This document shows, in pieces, positions 2,894 through 33,456 of a stretch of 64,000 nt of DNA. The notes under the pieces are model-generated. The model made no database searches, had not been told where the DNA came from, and was given only the letters and a program-made list of their open reading frames with translations. Made by a program: the position numbers and the translations under genes. Each line of letters starts with the position of its first letter. Positions within the stretch are counted from its first letter, which is position 1. Source of the stretch: an uncultured Desulfobacterium sp. (GTDB taxonomy: Bacteria; Desulfobacterota; DSM-4660; Desulfatiglandales; Desulfatiglandaceae); contig LT984854.1 of NCBI GenBank assembly GCA_900258555.1, positions 2,086,975-2,150,974 on the forward strand. The letters are read 5' to 3'.

Positions 2894-5800
2894 TTAGACG
2901 AAGAGCTCTGTTACCTTGCCTGCTTTGTATATGTTTACCAGGCAGGCCTTATATTCCGGGATGGTCACATTGGGATCGGCCACAGACGCCATAAGGCGGT
3001 TGGTGGCGTCACCCACGCCGGGAGTCATCCAGCCGAAGCAGAACGGCATGCCCGCCAGGTGCACGGTCTTACCCTGCACCTTGAAGGGGGTCATGCGCAC
3101 AGTAACCATAGCTATGGCCTCTGCCTTTCCTCGAATACTTTCAACAATCACCGGATCGCCGTTCCTGATGCCCTTTTCCTTGGCCAATTCGTGACTGATC
3201 TCCACGTAAAGCTGCGGCTCGGCCTCCAGCAGGACCGGAGTGTTTCTGGTATCGGCGCCTCCACACCAATGCTCGGTAAGCCCATAGGTGGTGAGCACGA
3301 TGGGAAAGCGCGGGTCTGCCGGGTCGGCCAGGAGGTCCAGATCACTTGTTGCCCTTTTCATGCATGGATTGTGGAGCTGCTTGGAAAAGGGATGCGACCT
3401 GATCGGGGTTTCAGCAGGTTCATAATGCTCAGGAAACGGCCCGTCCACGCGACCGGGCCCGTAAAGCTGTCCATGTCCTTCAGTCTGCATGATGAATGGA
3501 TATTTTCCATCGGGCATGGCCATTGGCGGCCAGGGCCCATCAGGCACATCGCCTACCCACTTTCCGTCTTCCCATGCGATTACTGCCTTGTCAGGATTGA
3601 AGGGTTTTCCCTTTACGTCCACTGATGCGCGGTTGTAGATGATTCGCCTGTTGACCGGCCACGCCCAGGAGAAGTTCGGAAAGATCCCGATCCTGGCCTG
3701 CATCGGCGTCTGGGTTCGGTCGCGACGCTTGGAGAGATTTCCCGTAGGCCCGTAGCAGTTGCAATAGAGCCAGTTCAGGCTCACAGTGGAGCCGTCGTCC
3801 TGCAGGAAGGCGAAGCTCGCCACCTGTTCGCCCTTTTTGTAGATCTTCTCATTAATTGTAACGTCCCTGGTGTACCAGCCGTTTATCTTTTTTGCGAGCA
3901 CATCGGGATCATAAGTTTCCGGCCAGTCCATGTTCATGATGGGCTCAGGAAATGCACCCTGTTCCTTTTTATAGAGATTGCGGATTCGATTAAAGATCTC
4001 CACAATCATCCAGCCCATGGCCTTACTCTCACCCATGGGCTCCATGCCCTTATAGTGCCACATGTGCCATCGGCCGCTGTTGGAAATGGTACCGTCCTTT
4101 TCGCCGCGCTGACAGGAGGGCAACAGAAATACCTCTGTCTTGATCTTTTTAGGATCAACTCCGGGACGATGCCAGAAGTCACTGGTTTCCGTGTGGTGAA
4201 TCTCACCGACCACCAACCATTCAAGCTTGTCCATGGCCTTGCGGACTTTGTTGGAGTTGGGCATGCTCTGTGCCGGATTGTGGGCGAAGATAAAGCCGCC
4301 GCGGACCTTGCCCTGGTACATCCGGTCAAAAAGAAAAAGACTTGCGTAATCCACACCGCGGTCCACCTTAGGGAGCCAACTGTAGCCGAATCCGTTTTCG
4401 TTGTTGGCTGCATCTCCCATCCATCCCTTCAGTAGGCTCACCATGTATTTGGGACGGTTGCCCCACCAGTTGGCGCTCTTGGGATCTTGTGTTTTTGGCG
4501 TGTTGGCCTTCTGGTAGTCTTCCAGGGTCGGCCAGTCCGCCCTGGGCATGGGAAGGTAGCCGGGAAGAACATTCCAGAGGATGGCGTGATCGGTAGACCC
4601 TTGCACGTTAGGCTCGCCGCGCAGGGCATTTATGCCGCCGCCTGCCACACCGATGTTGCCCAGCAAAAGCTGGACAATAGCCGAAAGGCGGATGTTCTGC
4701 ACACCTACAGTGTGCTGTGTCCAACCAAGCGCATACATCACGGTGCCGGCCTTGCCAGGCGCGCCGGTAGCTGCATATGTCTCGTATACCTTCAGCAGAT
4801 CTTCCCTGGTAACACCGGTGACCGCGGAAACCCTATCCAACGTGTAGCGTTCATAATGCTTCTTTAAGAGCTGGTACACGCATCGTGGATGCTTGAGAGT
4901 CTTGTCAAGTTTCGGCACACCATTTTCATCCAAGGCAAAGGCCCATTTCTTCTGGTCATAGCTCTTCTTTCCCGGATCATAGCCAGAAAACAGGCCGTCC
5001 TTAAACTCGTAACCGTCACCGACAATGAATGAGGCATTGGTATACTCGACCACGTAATCGTGGTGATATAGGTTCTTATCAAGAATGAACTTGACCATGC
5101 CGCCCAGCATGGGAATGTCTGTGCCGCTCCGTATGGGAACATGCATATCACTTCTTGCCGAAGTCCTGGAGAATTTCGGGTCAATGTGGATAACCGTGGC
5201 GCCTGCATCTTTGGCCTTGAGCACCCATTTAAAAGAAATCGGATGGTTTTCGGCGGCATTGCTGCCCATGATCAGAACTACATTGGCGTTTTTAATATCA
5301 ATCCAGTGGTTGGTCATTGCGCCGCGTCCGAACGACTCTGCCAGAGCCGCAACAGTGGCGCTGTGTCAGACGCGGGCCTGATGGTCTATGTAGACAACGC
5401 CCAACCCGCGCAGCATCTGATGTGAAACAGCACATTCCTCATTGTCCATCTGTGAACTGCCAAGCTGAAATATAGTCTCTACCCGATTGACCTGTTGCCC
5501 CACGCCGTTTTTCAACAAGAAGTCCTGGTCGCGGTTGTCCTTGACTCGCCTGGCAATACGTTCCAGGACAAAGTCCCAGTCCTTTTCTTCCCACTTATCG
5601 CTTCCGGGGGCACGGTACTTCGGCCTTTGGAGCCGGTGCTCGTTGTTGTGCATGGACAGAAATGCAGCACCTTTAGAGCACAGGGTACCTTCGCTCACCG
5701 GATAATCCGGATCCCCTTCCGAACTGACCATCCTCCCATCCCTTACTGACATGATAATGTTGCACCCGCACGAGCAAAAACCGCAGATAGAGAGAATTTC

Positions 5801-5938
5801 CTTGGATCCCTCAATCTTCAGCCCTGCAGCGTAAGCCCTGACAGGCCTAAGATTAAACCCCAGCCCGGAAAGACCCAGGCTAGCCAGGCCCATTCCCGTA
5901 AGCTTGATGAATCCCCTCCGTGAAATGTACATACTCAC
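2894..5938 (-). CDS. fdhA: Formate dehydrogenase catalytic subunit, selenocysteine-containing, Tat-exported
   Basis: One gene of 1014 residues read through an in-frame UGA at 5366-5368 (residue 191); conventional calling would split it into pieces of 190 and 807 codons. Residues around the UGA, DHQARV-Sec-HSATVAALAESFGRG, match the active-site segment of FdnG-type enzymes, where Sec ligates Mo or W. The N-terminus has a twin-arginine signal (SRRGFIK followed by a hydrophobic stretch), then a [4Fe-4S] site CGFCSCGC with a later CSKG. The remainder is a molybdopterin oxidoreductase with a C-terminal dinucleotide-binding domain (TTYGLTEHWCGG region). It oxidises formate to CO2 in the periplasm with FdhB. 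It follows cydB by 63 bases. Length is the same as FdnG (about 1015). Confidence 0.96.
5338..5368 (-). promoter_or_regulatory. Selenocysteine UGA codon and candidate SECIS hairpin of fdhA
   Basis: The UGA is at 5366-5368 (minus strand). Ten bases after it, a hairpin at 5338-5355 can form: CUGUUG pairs with UGGCAG (some G-U pairs) around a CGGCUC loop that has G in its first positions. Bacterial SECIS elements sit directly after the UGA with an apical loop containing G, recognised by SelB. The codon call is strong from protein conservation; the exact fold is my manual estimate. Confidence 0.75.
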
Positions 5939-6001
5939 CCCTTTTCTTACGTTTTCCTTTTAGTTCGGATTAGACTCTTGTATCAAGATGAGAGAAATAT
6001 T

Positions 6002-7030
6002 TCAATACGCTTCCTCGTAGGCTAAATCATCTTTGGTTACCTTGTGCTTGAAAAGATTATAGGCCCAGATCTGGTAGGACAGAACGATCGGAACGAAAAT
6101 TACAGCCACAACCAGCATGATCTTCAGGGTCAGAGGACTAGAGGATGCGTTATGTGCCGAAAGACTGTATGCGGGATCAATGCTTGATGGGAACATGTTG
6201 GGGTAAAGGCCTATGACTCCGTAGAATGTTGCACCGATTATGGTTAATGCCGAAGAAAACCAGGCCTTCCAAAAATGACCTTTTGTCACAAATACCTTGA
6301 TGCCCAAAAGGGCCAGCACGGTGATCACAATGACAATAAAAAGCATCGGGTTGGCCAGGTAATTTTTATACAACGGTGTATACAATGCCGAGGCTATCAG
6401 GAATATCACCGCCACCACCAACAGCAACCACCAAATTATTCCGGCAGTCCGGGCCGCTCGCGTATGAAGATCTCCGTCGCTTTTGATGGACAAAAAGATT
6501 GCTCCGTGCACAAGGAACAACATCAAAAAAAGTAGGCCTCCCAAAAGCCCGTAAGGATTGAGGAGGGTAATCAATGTTCCCTGGTAAACCCCGTTTCCAT
6601 CAAAAGGAATTCCCCTGAAAATATTAGCAAATGCCACACCCAGAAGAATGGCGGGAAGGAGACTGCCTGCGAACATGCATGTATCCCATAGCCTTCTCCA
6701 TCCTGGATGATTTACTTTGCTTCTGAACTCGAAGCAAACGCCTCGCAGAATAAGGGAAAAGAGCAGCAGCATCAACGCGGAATAAAGTGAGCTGAACATC
6801 ACCCCGTAGACCTTGGGAAAAGCGGCAAATGTCACCCCGCCTGCTGTTAGCAACCATACTTCGTTGCCATCCCACAGCGGCCCCATGGAGTTAAACATGA
6901 TTCGCTTTTCTTCATCGGTCTTTGCCAGGACCGGCAAAAGGCATCCGATTCCCAGATCAAAACCGTCCGTTATAAAATAGACGGCCCACAACAATCCCCA
7001 TAAAAAAAACCATATATCTTGCAGTATCAT
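6002..7030 (-). CDS. cydB: Cytochrome bd quinol oxidase subunit II
   Basis: A 342-residue membrane protein with about eight to nine hydrophobic helices and the CydB N-terminal signature (WFFLWGLLWAVYFITDGFDLG, here residues 6 to 26, including the conserved DGFDLG and the GPLWDGNEVWL segment near residue 50). It forms the heterodimer with CydA in the inner membrane that oxidises quinol and reduces O2 to water without proton pumping. It lies 39 bases after cydA. In strict anaerobes this oxidase is a high-affinity oxygen scavenger (family knowledge). It precedes fdhA by only 63 bases on the same strand, so cotranscription is likely. Confidence 0.95.
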   Translation of the reverse strand: MILQDIWFFLWGLLWAVYFITDGFDLGIGCLLPVLAKTDEEKRIMFNSMGPLWDGNEVWLLTAGGVTFAAFPKVYGVMFSSLYSALMLLLFSLILRGVCFEFRSKVNHPGWRRLWDTCMFAGSLLPAILLGVAFANIFRGIPFDGNGVYQGTLITLLNPYGLLGGLLFLMLFLVHGAIFLSIKSDGDLHTRAARTAGIIWWLLLVVAVIFLIASALYTPLYKNYLANPMLFIVIVITVLALLGIKVFVTKGHFWKAWFSSALTIIGATFYGVIGLYPNMFPSSIDPAYSLSAHNASSSPLTLKIMLVVAVIFVPIVLSYQIWAYNLFKHKVTKDDLAYEEAY

Positions 7031-7069
7031 AGTAACCTCCGTTTTTTATAATAGAAGGAAATTAAAAGA

Positions 7070-8374
7070 TTATGCCGGATTGGGCCCTTGTTTGGCATTC
7101 TTGATGATCAGATAAAATCCCACTGCACCGAGAAGACCGTATACAAGGATGAAGGCCACCAAGGATGTAAGCACCTGTGAAGTGGCAATTGGCGAAAATG
7201 CATCGGCGGTCTTCATCAACCCGTATACAATCCATGGCTGACGGCCGACTTCGGCGACAGTCCAGCCCAATTCACAGGCAATGTAGGGAAGCGGTATGGA
7301 ATAGAGCATCAACTTGAGATACCACGGTGATTCCATAAGTTTGTTTCTCTTCAGCCATCCGATAAGAGTTACCAGGACAAAATAGAATCCCAGTCCCACC
7401 ATCAGATTAAAGGACAAATACGTGATTAATACAGGCGGCCTGTCCTCTTTCGGGAAGTCCTTAAGACCCTTCACCTCGGCTGAAGGAGTATGCTTGGCAA
7501 GAAGACTGAGAACCCCTGGGATCGGGATGATCTCAATGGAATTTTTTTCCATTTGCTGATCGGGCCATGCAAACAGATACTTGGGGGCATAAGTCATGGT
7601 CTGCCAATGGGCCTCCATAGCCGCAAGTTTTGTAGGCTGTTTTTCCGCCAGATCGGAACCATGTAAATGGCCTTCAACGACTTCCAGCACCGAAAAGATC
7701 AGCCCAAAGACCAGGGCCATCCTGAATGACTTGCTGAAAAATTCCACATGCTGTTTCTTTAACAGGTGATAGGCGCTTATTCCCATGACAAAAAATGCGC
7801 TCAATATATATGCGGCGCTGGCAGTATGGATAAACTCCAGCACGGCGAATCCCTGAAAGACCACATCGGCAAAGCTTTCCAATTCAGCCCGACCGTTTTT
7901 CAACACATATCCGACAGGGTGCTGCATCCAGGCATTTGCAGTCAGAATCCAAATTGCGGACAGTGTAGATGCAAAGGCCACCAGCCACATGACGAAGGCA
8001 TGGGCCTTGGCAGAAAGCTTTTTCCATCCGAATACCCATACCCCGATAAATGTGGATTCAAGAAAAAAGGCCGCTGTAGCCTCTATAGCCAAAAGAGAGC
8101 CGAATATGTCCCCTACAAAAGAGGAATAGCGCGACCAGTTGGTGCCGAATTGGAACTCGAGTGTTATACCGGTAACTATGCCCACAGCAAAATTGACGAG
8201 GAAGAGCTTACTCCAGAACTTGGTCATCCTGAGGTAGATCTCCTCGCCGGTCCTGGCATACTTGGTTTCCATGATTGCAACAAGAATGGAAAGCCCCAAG
8301 GTTAAAGGAACAAACAGGAAGTGAAAAAACGTGGCTGCAGCGAATTGCAGCCTGGATAAAAACAAAACATCCAT
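7070..8374 (-). CDS. cydA: Cytochrome bd quinol oxidase subunit I (short Q-loop type)
   Basis: A 434-residue, multi-helix protein beginning MDVLFLSRLQFAAATFFHF; His18 corresponds to the axial heme b595 ligand at the N-terminus of CydA proteins. The GRQPWIVYG segment near the C-terminal third and a WTVAEVGRQPW motif are typical of the family. It is shorter than the E. coli protein (522 residues), placing it in the short Q-loop type usual outside enterobacteria. Its ATG has a good AGGAGG ribosome site (RNA sense). It is the first gene of the cydAB-fdhAB-fdhE cluster. Confidence 0.95.
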   Translation of the reverse strand: MDVLFLSRLQFAAATFFHFLFVPLTLGLSILVAIMETKYARTGEEIYLRMTKFWSKLFLVNFAVGIVTGITLEFQFGTNWSRYSSFVGDIFGSLLAIEATAAFFLESTFIGVWVFGWKKLSAKAHAFVMWLVAFASTLSAIWILTANAWMQHPVGYVLKNGRAELESFADVVFQGFAVLEFIHTASAAYILSAFFVMGISAYHLLKKQHVEFFSKSFRMALVFGLIFSVLEVVEGHLHGSDLAEKQPTKLAAMEAHWQTMTYAPKYLFAWPDQQMEKNSIEIIPIPGVLSLLAKHTPSAEVKGLKDFPKEDRPPVLITYLSFNLMVGLGFYFVLVTLIGWLKRNKLMESPWYLKLMLYSIPLPYIACELGWTVAEVGRQPWIVYGLMKTADAFSPIATSQVLTSLVAFILVYGLLGAVGFYLIIKNAKQGPNPA

Positions 8375-8468
8375 ACTGTCCTCCTTAAATAAAGGTTTTA
8401 TATAGAGTTATGCCTTGATCCTTTGTGGCCCATCGGCCACATGGTTATTTATTAGGAGAAGAAAGAAT

Positions 8469-8496
8469 ATTATATGAATATGGGAGGAGATGTCAT
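8469..8496 (-). promoter_or_regulatory. Candidate sigma70-type promoter for cydAB-fdh cluster
   Basis: On the minus strand ATGACA (8491-8496) and TATAAT (8469-8474) are separated by 16 bases, leaving a leader of about 90 bases before cydA. The rest of 8375-8701 shows no gene; it holds a short GTGGCCCATCGGCCAC palindrome near 8425. Manual match only. Confidence 0.45.
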
Positions 8497-8701
8497 CGTT
8501 CAGAGTGTGCATTGCATCCCTTCCAAATGATTTTGATTTATATAAGCTTTAAGCTAGGATACATAAATTTCAATAGAAATCAAGCTGTTCTTTTATCAAA
8601 GGGACCCTCAATGAGTTCAAAATCCAGTGGTGTTCAATCAAGCCACCAAGAACACAACGGGTTTTGCTGTTGATATTTTTAAGGCGTCTCGGATACCAGC
8701 A

Positions 8702-8731
8702 TTGACTTCTCGTATATTTGTTTGATATAGA
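8702..8731 (+). promoter_or_regulatory. Candidate promoter of the cobalamin operon
   Basis: TTGACT at 8702-8707 and TATAGA at 8726-8731 with an 18-base spacer lie just upstream of the riboswitch, placing the transcript start near 8738. Match is by eye. Confidence 0.45.
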
Positions 8732-8751
8732 CTGTGGTCGCAAAAATATAG

Positions 8752-8935
8752 TCTGTAAAGGTGTTCAGCATACGGAACACGGTTAGAATCCGTGACGGTC
8801 CCGCCGCTGTAACCCCGCCATTTTAATAATGGAACCCTGTTGGCGTTTTTCGTCACTGTCCCGGAAAACCGGTATGGGAAGGCGGCCAAATGGGGCGGGG
8901 AAGTCAGAAGACGAGCTGAATGGCCTTGATGCAAG
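8752..8935 (+). promoter_or_regulatory. Adenosylcobalamin (cobalamin) riboswitch
   Basis: The conserved pieces appear in order: AAAGGTGTTCAGCATACGG, the GTTAGAATCCGTGACGGTCC strand, the B12-box GCCGCTGTAA near 8803, a variable arm, GGGAAGGCGG near 8877, and the GTCAGAAGAC element near 8903. This is the class found ahead of B12 synthesis and transport genes. Binding of the cofactor lowers expression. The downstream genes cobT-cobS-cobD-cbiB complete the same pathway, and a strong terminator follows at 8949-9008, so control is probably by transcription termination. Confidence 0.93.
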
Positions 8936-8948
8936 AACTTGATGGTAA

Positions 8949-9008
8949 AGGGTTCTGATAGGATGAGGCTATAAAAGCCTGTGGTTTCCTGTCGGAGCCC
9001 TTTTTTTA
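8949..9008 (+). terminator. Riboswitch-controlled intrinsic terminator
   Basis: AGGGTTCTGATAGGA at 8949-8963 pairs with TCCTGTCGGAGCCCT ending at 9001, about 15 base pairs including G-U pairs, followed by a run of T at 9001-9007. It lies between the riboswitch aptamer and cobT, as expected of the expression platform. Confidence 0.85.
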
Positions 9009-30979: not shown

Positions 30980-32185
30980 GTGATTTTCAGCGGCCGGATG
31001 CTGGTCGCATTTATCATGGGGTTTGCCTGCGGACTGCCGCTTCGTTTAACAATGGGGGTATTGCAGGCATGGATGAAGGAGGATGGCGTTTCACTGACCG
31101 TCATCGGCCTGTTCAGCCTTGTTCAGATCCCCTACGCCTGGAAATTCCTTTGGGCACCTGTTCTTGATTGTTACACTCTGCCGTTCCTCGGCCGCAGAAG
31201 GGGTTGGCTGCTGTCAGCTCAGATCGCCCTTATAGCGGCTATTGCCTGCCTTGGACTTTCAGATCCAAAAAATCATTTCAATATAACGGTTATTTTAGCC
31301 ATAATCGTCGCCTTCTTTAGCGCTACACAGGATATTGTAGTAGACGCGTACAGGCGGGAAGACCTTGCGGATGAAGAATTGGGGCTGGGCTCATCGATGT
31401 ATATGTATGGTTATCAGCTTGGGACACTGCTTGCCTATGGAGGGGGGCTGATTATGGCCGACTATATGACATGGACATCGGTATATATGATCATGAGCGC
31501 CTGCATGCTCCCATGTATTCTGACAACACTTCTGTGTCCTGAACCGGTGATACCAGATGGGACTCCCAAGACAATAAAACAAGCGGTTTTTGATCCCCTG
31601 AGTGATTACTTCAGACGTTCGGGCGCATTATGGGTGCTTGCATTCATTTTTTTTTATAAGATCGGCGACACCATGGCAGGGGCGATGACAACACCCTTTT
31701 ATCTTGATGTTGGATTTTCTAAGTCTCAAATAGGCGCAGTAGCAAAAATCTTCGGAGCGTGGGGCATCTTTGCAGGAGCCTTTGTCGGGGGGCTGATTAT
31801 GCTCCGGCTGGGGATAAACAACAGTCTCTGGATATTTGGGATTCTCCAGGCCGTTTCGACGGCCTGTTTCGCCATCTTGGCTGTGTCTGGCCCTAATGCG
31901 GCCTTATTGGCCGGGGTGGTTTCGTTTGAAAACCTGACAAGCGGTATGGGCTCAGCGGCGTTTATCGCCTTTATGGCAAGCATTACCAACAAGAGATTTA
32001 CCGCAACGCAGTATGCCCTATTAACAAGTTTTATGGCCTTTCCCCGGGTAGTAGCCTCAGCGCCGACCGGGATACTTGCAAAAGGACTTGGGTGGGAGGG
32101 CTTTTATATCTTATGCACCCTGGCTGCTATCCCAGGCATATTGCTGTTGCTCAAGTTTGCGCCATGGGAGATCAAAAAAGCCTAA
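30980..32185 (+). CDS. ampG: AmpG-like major facilitator permease
   Basis: A 401-residue MFS protein with about twelve hydrophobic helices. The N-terminal LPLRLTMGVLQAWMKEDGVS and LVQIPYAWKFLWAPVLDCY, and the SATQDIVVDAYRREDL motif, are characteristic of AmpG, which imports anhydromuropeptides for cell-wall recycling. The start is taken as GTG at 30980, 17 bases after the FHA gene; an internal ATG at residue 7 is also possible. It converges with the small selenoprotein candidate, their stop codons overlapping on opposite strands at 32182-32185. Confidence 0.87.
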   Translation: MIFSGRMLVAFIMGFACGLPLRLTMGVLQAWMKEDGVSLTVIGLFSLVQIPYAWKFLWAPVLDCYTLPFLGRRRGWLLSAQIALIAAIACLGLSDPKNHFNITVILAIIVAFFSATQDIVVDAYRREDLADEELGLGSSMYMYGYQLGTLLAYGGGLIMADYMTWTSVYMIMSACMLPCILTTLLCPEPVIPDGTPKTIKQAVFDPLSDYFRRSGALWVLAFIFFYKIGDTMAGAMTTPFYLDVGFSKSQIGAVAKIFGAWGIFAGAFVGGLIMLRLGINNSLWIFGILQAVSTACFAILAVSGPNAALLAGVVSFENLTSGMGSAAFIAFMASITNKRFTATQYALLTSFMAFPRVVASAPTGILAKGLGWEGFYILCTLAAIPGILLLLKFAPWEIKKA

Positions 32186-32340
32186 ACCCGGTCGCAGCTG
32201 ATATAAGCCAACTGAGCTTCTATCTCATCAGAGATGTCCTCTATTCGCAGGCGCCTTTCTGATCCGCATGACCTGCAGACCATAAAAATCCCTGATCATT
32301 TTCTTACAAGAACGAGCCTCGAACCGCATTGACATTTCAT
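32182..32340 (-). CDS. Candidate small selenoprotein with paired Cys motifs (in-frame UGA)
   Basis: From ATG 32338-32340, 52 codons end at TAG 32182-32184, reading MKCQCGSRLVLVRK-UGA-SGIFMVCRSC and GSERRLRIEDISDEIEAQLA then YISCDRV. Cys lie at positions 3, 5, 22, 25 and 49, resembling a small zinc-ribbon or redox protein with CxC, CxxC and a terminal CDRV. A GGAG ribosome site is 8 bases upstream. The UGA at codon 15 (32296-32298) is followed after 13 bases by a 9-bp hairpin with a GGUCA loop, as expected of a SECIS element. From memory, small dual-CxxC proteins with Sec-containing members are known in Desulfobacterota, but I cannot confirm the match. The alternative is a gene broken by a nonsense mutation. 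Confidence 0.65.
32260..32298 (-). promoter_or_regulatory. Candidate SECIS element after UGA codon 15
   Basis: In RNA sense UGGUCUGCA (from 32282) pairs fully with UGCGGAUCA (to 32260), nine pairs including two G-U, closing a five-base GGUCA loop. The loop begins 22 bases after the UGA. The GCAGGUC apex equals that of the E. coli fdhF SECIS, in which GGUC and nearby bases contact SelB. Found by manual folding. Confidence 0.65.
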
Positions 32341-32577
32341 TATTATTTCTCCAGATGATTTCAAGTGGTGGCTTTTTGCAACAGATTTATTACACCATAA
32401 GATCAATACTATCAATATCGTCATAATGATAATAAAAATGACTTAACAGAAAGGACGATTGATTTGGTTTTCAAATTCTGATATGTACAGCTCTTCTTTT
32501 GCGAATTGGTTAGTTTAGTGGTGGTGCTCTATCGCTGAAGGGGATGCATGTTTAATTGCTAAATCCGGACCTTGAAT

Positions 32578-33456
32578 ATGAACAGAATCGGCCGAAATGA
32601 TCCTTGCCCTTGCGGAAGCGGTCTCAAATACAAAAAATGCTGTCTTGCCAAAAAGACCTCTGAAGAGATCGGCGATGTGAAAAACTTATATTATCAGAGA
32701 CATAAAATACAATTGAAGGATAACGGGGCGATTGAGGGAATCAGGGCTGCCGGTCTACTGGCACTGTCTACCCTGGATGTGGCTGAAGCGATCATTAAAC
32801 CCGGAATCACTACGGATGAAATAAACACCATGGTTCATGACTTCACTGTGTCACACGGCGCTGTCCCCGCCCCCCTGAATTATCGCGGTTTTCCAAAGAG
32901 TGTCTGCGTCTCCATCAATGAGGTGATCTGTCATGGCATCCCAGGCAAAAGGGTATTGGCTGACGGCGACATAGTGAACGTGGATGTCACACCTATCCTG
33001 AACGGATTTTATGCTGATGTCAGCAAGACCTTTTTCGTCGGATCCCCCGGAGATGATGCAAAAAAAATTGTAAGCGTTGCAAAGGAATGCCTCAGGTTAG
33101 GAATATCCATGGTAAGACCCGGCAACACCGTAGGGGATATCGGGTGGATAATTCAAAAGTATGCCGAGGGACAAGGCTGCTCTGTTGTTAGGGAGTTTGT
33201 CGGGCACGGAGTGGGCCTTGGCTTTCATGAGCCGCCGCAGATTCCCCATTATGGTCGCAAGGGAAACGGCATCAGGCTGGTGCCTGGCATGGTCTTTACC
33301 ATCGAGCCCATGATAAATCTGGGAGACAGCACTCTCCGTATACTGGAAGACAACTGGACCGCTGTAACCGCCGACGGATCACTGTCGGCGCAGTTCGAGC
33401 AGACCATCCTTGTGACAGAGGATGGCTGTGAAAGCCTTACACCATTTGACCTTTAA
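32578..33456 (+). CDS. map: Methionine aminopeptidase type I with N-terminal SEC-C motif
   Basis: A 292-residue protein from the ATG at 32578 (a TTG two codons earlier is less likely). Residues 1-25 are a SEC-C zinc motif ([16 protein letters not shown]) as in the SecA tail. The rest is a type Ia methionine aminopeptidase that removes initiator Met. The five metal ligands are visible: Asp in [18 protein letters not shown] (two), His in [14 protein letters not shown], Glu in FTIEPMI, and Glu in FEQTILV. The SEC-C extension may aid ribosome or protein docking, as in MAP variants of other bacteria. Confidence 0.94.

Follow-up and report, generated by a model that had tools for sequence, protein, structure and literature searches.

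A 52-codon gene on the minus strand between ampG and map, in a window of 64,000 nucleotides from an uncultured Desulfobacterium sp., very probably encodes a small selenoprotein of the NF041197 / OS_HP3 family, with selenocysteine (Sec) predicted at an in-frame UGA in codon 15. The selenoprotein reading was settled by comparison across the phylum; the single hairpin of the window sequence is weak evidence. In the comparative set, the Sec column holds either UGA or a Cys codon, and the pairing of the hairpin appears to be under selection in the UGA-containing genes only.

Locus and reading frame

The first-pass annotation, made from the raw sequence, had described a minus-strand frame of 52 codons between the two neighbouring genes, with a GGAG ribosome-binding site, five cysteines and one UGA at codon 15, followed after 13 nt by a nine-pair stem that closes a GGUCA loop. 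All of these features were found (Table 1). The predicted product is MKCQCGSRLVLVRK-U-SGIFMVCRSCGSERRLRIEDISDEIEAQLAYISCDRV, which has 52 residues with U at codon 15 and cysteines at positions 3, 5, 22, 25 and 49. The gene and ampG are arranged tail to tail and overlap by 4 nt at their 3' ends, and a promoter scan found no sigma-70-like promoter upstream of the 52-codon gene.

Table 1. Features of the window that are discussed in the text (positions are those of the window).
Feature	Position	Strand	Remarks
52-codon putative selenoprotein gene, NF041197 (OS_HP3) family	32340..32182	-	TAG stop included
In-frame UGA, codon 15, predicted Sec	32298-32296	-	column with only UGA or Cys (90/90 loci)
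GGAG ribosome-binding site	32352-32349	-	8 nt 5' of the ATG
bSECIS-like hairpin	32282-32260	-	9-bp stem, GGUCA loop, stem 13 nt after the UGA
ampG, AmpG family muropeptide MFS transporter	30980-32185	+	convergent neighbour
map, type I methionine aminopeptidase, SEC-C-like N-terminal motif	32572-33456	+	divergent neighbour
fdhA, formate dehydrogenase-N alpha subunit	2894-5938	-	TIGR01553, 1365.6 bits; UGA (predicted Sec) at codon 191, 5368-5366

Family identity and conservation across the phylum

The product was compared to the NCBIfam model NF041197, "dual CXXC motif small (seleno)protein" (CxxC_Se_CxxC), which has a profile of 53 positions and a curated cut-off of 40 bits. When residue 15 was read as Cys in place of Sec, the score was 41.5 bits, which barely exceeds the cut-off, and the match covered residues 4-52 of the protein and positions 3-53 of the profile. 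When the same residue was read as Trp, the score fell to 34.8, and the part of the protein past the UGA scored 26.8 bits (E = 4e-6) by itself. All 63 of the 63 members of our alignment match the model, and the Pfam search gave no family for the window protein.

We aligned 90 loci, which come from about 85 genomes within the phylum. They were collected by a family-model search that reads through stop codons and scores the whole 53-position profile. Among these loci, which are the better-scoring matches to a model that itself expects a Cys-like residue at the Sec column, that column contains UGA 65 times and Cys 25 times, and no other residue. The second CxxC follows it at a distance of exactly 7 residues in 90/90 loci. 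The sister genome, which is the closest relative and from the same genus (genome G001, locus L002), encodes a protein that is 85% identical, with frame, UGA and hairpin all kept. Between this gene and that of the window, 22 of the 33 base changes are at third codon positions, with 4 synonymous and 3 non-synonymous codon changes before the UGA and 13 and 5, respectively, after it. Both parts of the support that the first-pass annotation had looked for were thus recovered: the homologs have U or C at position 15, and sequence is conserved on either side of the UGA. A scan of the genome contigs with the single window protein recovered the sister genome only, and a tblastn search of plasmids with the same query gave no match.

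The window protein carries the motif R13-K14-U15 (RxU), by which it is of the OS_HP3 type; Arg is found at position -2 in 44/65 UGA loci and in 25/25 Cys loci. The second Cys pair is a CxxC (positions 22 and 25), and the first is a CxC (positions 3 and 5), as in 12 of the 65 UGA loci, all of which come from the window organism's own family and order and still match NF041197. The equivalent of C49, which stands before D-R near the C terminus, is Cys in 35/65 UGA loci and Val, Leu or another residue in the rest, and the family therefore has no universal resolving residue. The gene had been called hidden in the first-pass annotation, which is true for generic ORF callers, by which it is truncated, but not for annotation based on NCBIfam, where the family is already described. 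The locus is one more, CxC-knuckle member of a catalogued family and not a new family.

The neighbouring genes are lineage-specific, and clustering of the neighbourhoods gave no universal partner for the family, for which reason we draw no functional link from ampG or map. Two of the neighbour clusters we take from their sequences to be pyrE (upstream, 7 Cys loci) and truA (downstream, 6 UGA loci), assignments that a Pfam search of 120-residue fragments left unconfirmed. Pfam confirmed a fabD-like acyltransferase gene at 5 loci and, beside copies with a GxU motif, an iron-containing alcohol dehydrogenase gene (PF00465), which lies within about 200 bp downstream of the DW-like members L118, L123 and L127.

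Selection on the hairpin downstream of the UGA

The loop of the hairpin starts 22 nt past the UGA. The bacterial SECIS consensus has a loop of 3-9 nt whose first two positions include a G, a stem of 4-16 bp, and a loop located 16-37 nt after the UGA (PMC13188914). The GGUCA loop, the 9 bp stem and the 22 nt distance fit this consensus. The GCAGGUC apex had been equated with that of E. coli fdhF, and a 45-nt query that contains TTGCAGGTCTGC indeed maps to fdhF and is present in 5,388/5,426 E. coli genomes. The protein motif accounts for part of the likeness, because the codons for C-R-S-C (UGC AGG UCN UGC) largely dictate the apex. An Rfam scan of the region gave sub-threshold chance matches only and no SECIS family. 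Compared to dinucleotide shuffles, the hairpin has a stability of z = -2.3, with 6/200 shuffles equally stable, and 49% of the synonymous recodings of the window peptide also yield a hairpin in agreement with the published model of the bacterial SECIS. By itself, the hairpin of the window sequence is moderately unusual and weak evidence for a SECIS element.

We compared the UGA genes to the Cys genes, which serve as a contrast because they need no SECIS, using a codon-preserving null in which synonymous codons were reshuffled between sequences within each column. In the UGA genes, pairing at the nine stem positions reaches 75.9% as compared to 71.7 +/- 0.9% under the null (z = 4.5, 0/1000), while in the Cys genes the pairing of 56.9% equals the null of 56.9% (z = 0); likewise, the folding energy relative to the synonymous null is lower in the UGA genes (mean z -1.61) than in the Cys genes (mean z -0.61; Mann-Whitney p = 2e-4), where the p-values of all hairpin tests are optimistic for related sequences and the contrast between the two groups carries the weight. 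A model-conforming bSECIS-type hairpin was identified in 50/65 UGA genes (23.4 expected) and in 7/25 Cys genes (5.0 expected). The comparison strongly supports selection on SECIS pairing beyond the codon constraint in the UGA genes only, as judged from the aligned sequences.

Selenocysteine machinery in the genome

The first-pass annotation had argued from fdhA in the window that the organism must insert Sec. This gene has one in-frame UGA (Table 1), which is an independent sign of Sec insertion, and the genome encodes SelA (627 bits), a main SelB (382 bits, C1:2609930), which is one of two SelB proteins above the cut-off, and a main tRNA-Sec(UCA) (72.4 bits, C1:1570842). SelB is present in 353/395 genomes of the phylum, and its co-occurrence with the family is therefore expected and adds little. 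Of those UGA-bearing genomes that were compared by eye with the list of SelB genomes, only two were without SelB, both of them incomplete assemblies (G101, 67%; G170, 76%). Given homology and the selected hairpin, SelB with Sec-tRNA(Sec) would bind this hairpin, which closely follows the UGA, and direct the insertion of Sec at codon 15 to give the full-length 52-residue protein. The locus is very probably a functional stand-alone gene.

The second SelB (303 bits, cut-off 242) is encoded at 6912-8996 (-) in region L129 (G000:C1:1445000-1461000), and a second tRNA-Sec(UCA) gene (57.8 bits, C1:1453893-1453980, minus strand) lies 57 bp upstream of it. Downstream of this SelB come genes for an XdhC-type maturation factor (5744-6919), a SufS-type cysteine desulfurase (4493-5734) and a SufU-like protein (4034-4492), each of which scores below its own NCBIfam cut-off. 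Counted by eye, more than one SelB is encoded in roughly 25-30 of the 395 genomes of the phylum. Some genomes are known to carry several tRNA-Sec genes (PMC5330540), and a limited literature search found no description of such a second SelB/tRNA-Sec operon. Also, a gene that resembles a tyrosine integrase by sequence lies about 200 bp downstream of the 3' end of the main tRNA-Sec gene (L061 / L131, G000:C1:1570842), and selC has probably served as an integration site.

Alternative readings of the UGA codon

That the locus is a pseudogene, in which a nonsense mutation to UGA disrupted a gene that formerly coded for Cys, could be suspected from the mere 14 codons before the UGA and from the existence of Cys-coding homologs. 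It is nevertheless highly improbable, as the same UGA recurs in 65 loci across many families, the sister genome keeps the frame on both sides of it with mostly synonymous change, and the excess of stem pairing is confined to the UGA genes. Just as improbable is a true stop, with a short peptide or a 42-residue frame as the product. An ATG at 32424 does initiate such a 42-residue ORF (32424..32296, minus strand), which ends at the UGA, but the homologs begin at or near MxC, the upstream extension is outside the family, and the conserved second CxxC is located past the UGA. We give almost no credence to decoding of the UGA as Trp or any other standard amino acid: with TGA=W the frame does stay open, but Trp brings the NF041197 score below the cut-off, sense homologs carry Cys only, and SelA, SelB and tRNA-Sec are found in the organism. 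Insertion of Sec at codon 15 is thus the preferred reading.

Predicted structure and function

An AlphaFold2 model based on 63 sequences (mean pLDDT 85, pTM 0.60) contains strands at residues 8-14 and 17-22, a short strand at 28-30 and a helix at 38-44. From the Cys pattern and this model we assign the protein to the zinc ribbons, and Cys 3, 5, 22 and 25 presumably bind one zinc in a ribbon fold. Searches with PDB profiles and Foldseek gave weak zinc-ribbon matches only (best E about 0.8). Residue 15 is placed by the model at the turn of the beta-hairpin that lies between the two Cys pairs, away from the Cys4 cluster in both sequence and topology, which suggests that Sec15 would be exposed at the hairpin tip rather than at the metal.

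A tentative proposal, which is a guess from chemistry and geometry and somewhat short of an even chance, is that Sec15 is a solvent-exposed selenol, which this small protein of the cytosol would use for redox chemistry or for reaction with electrophiles. Sec15 could instead be a metal ligand or a structural residue, which concerns the function only and is compatible with the identity as a selenoprotein. The four other invariant cysteines, which would already form a metal site, and the variable C49 position, which leaves the family with no conserved resolving Cys, both speak for such a role, but the modelled location at the hairpin turn and the rarity of Sec at non-catalytic positions in characterized selenoproteins make it unlikely. 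Some zinc ribbons of RNA polymerase factors dock into their partner with acidic tips. A long shot is that the ribbon presents Sec at the exposed tip as a reactive finger, by which the protein would dock into a larger partner, and that the second SelB/tRNA-Sec pair serves a subset of the selenoproteins.

Implications and comparison with known systems

A tool-free reading of the raw sequence can find a gene that is truncated by generic ORF callers. The locus adds a CxC-knuckle member to the NF041197 family, and the 65 Sec and 25 Cys loci provide a comparative set that separates SECIS constraint from codon constraint. The operon that pairs the second SelB with a tRNA-Sec gene of its own may merit separate attention.

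Small zinc ribbons such as ZifS, the Rpb9-type ribbons and LysW resemble the window protein in having two Cys pairs on two knuckles with a beta-hairpin between them, although the matches are weak; to our knowledge, none of these is a selenoprotein. The E. coli fdhF SECIS has the GCAGGUC apex and a hairpin soon after the UGA in common with the locus, but the proteins are unrelated and the apex arises here from the C-R-S-C codons.

In a 2026 review, NF041197 is given as the selenoprotein "hypothetical protein OS_HP3" with the motif RxU, and OS_HP3 is attributed there to Zhang & Gladyshev 2007, who described it in the Olavius symbiont (PMC13188914). The same review also assigns the GxU-type "hypothetical protein DW" to NF041197. 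DW was introduced in a study with deep-Sep, which also mentions OS_HP3 in Desulfosarcina widdelii (PMC12013277). DW matches NF041197 and has Sec at the same column as the window protein, but differs in its G-x-U motif and in a longer, divergent C terminus. GxU-type copies are present in several relatives (e.g., L112, L122, L123, L127), and the family-model search detected no second NF041197 copy in the window organism's genome. With NF041197 / OS_HP3, the window protein shares its length, the two Cys pairs, Sec in R-x-U at the same place and the C-terminal C-D-R. It differs in the CxC instead of CxxC first knuckle and in having two residues fewer before the C-terminal helix, and its close relatives within the family and order share both of these differences.
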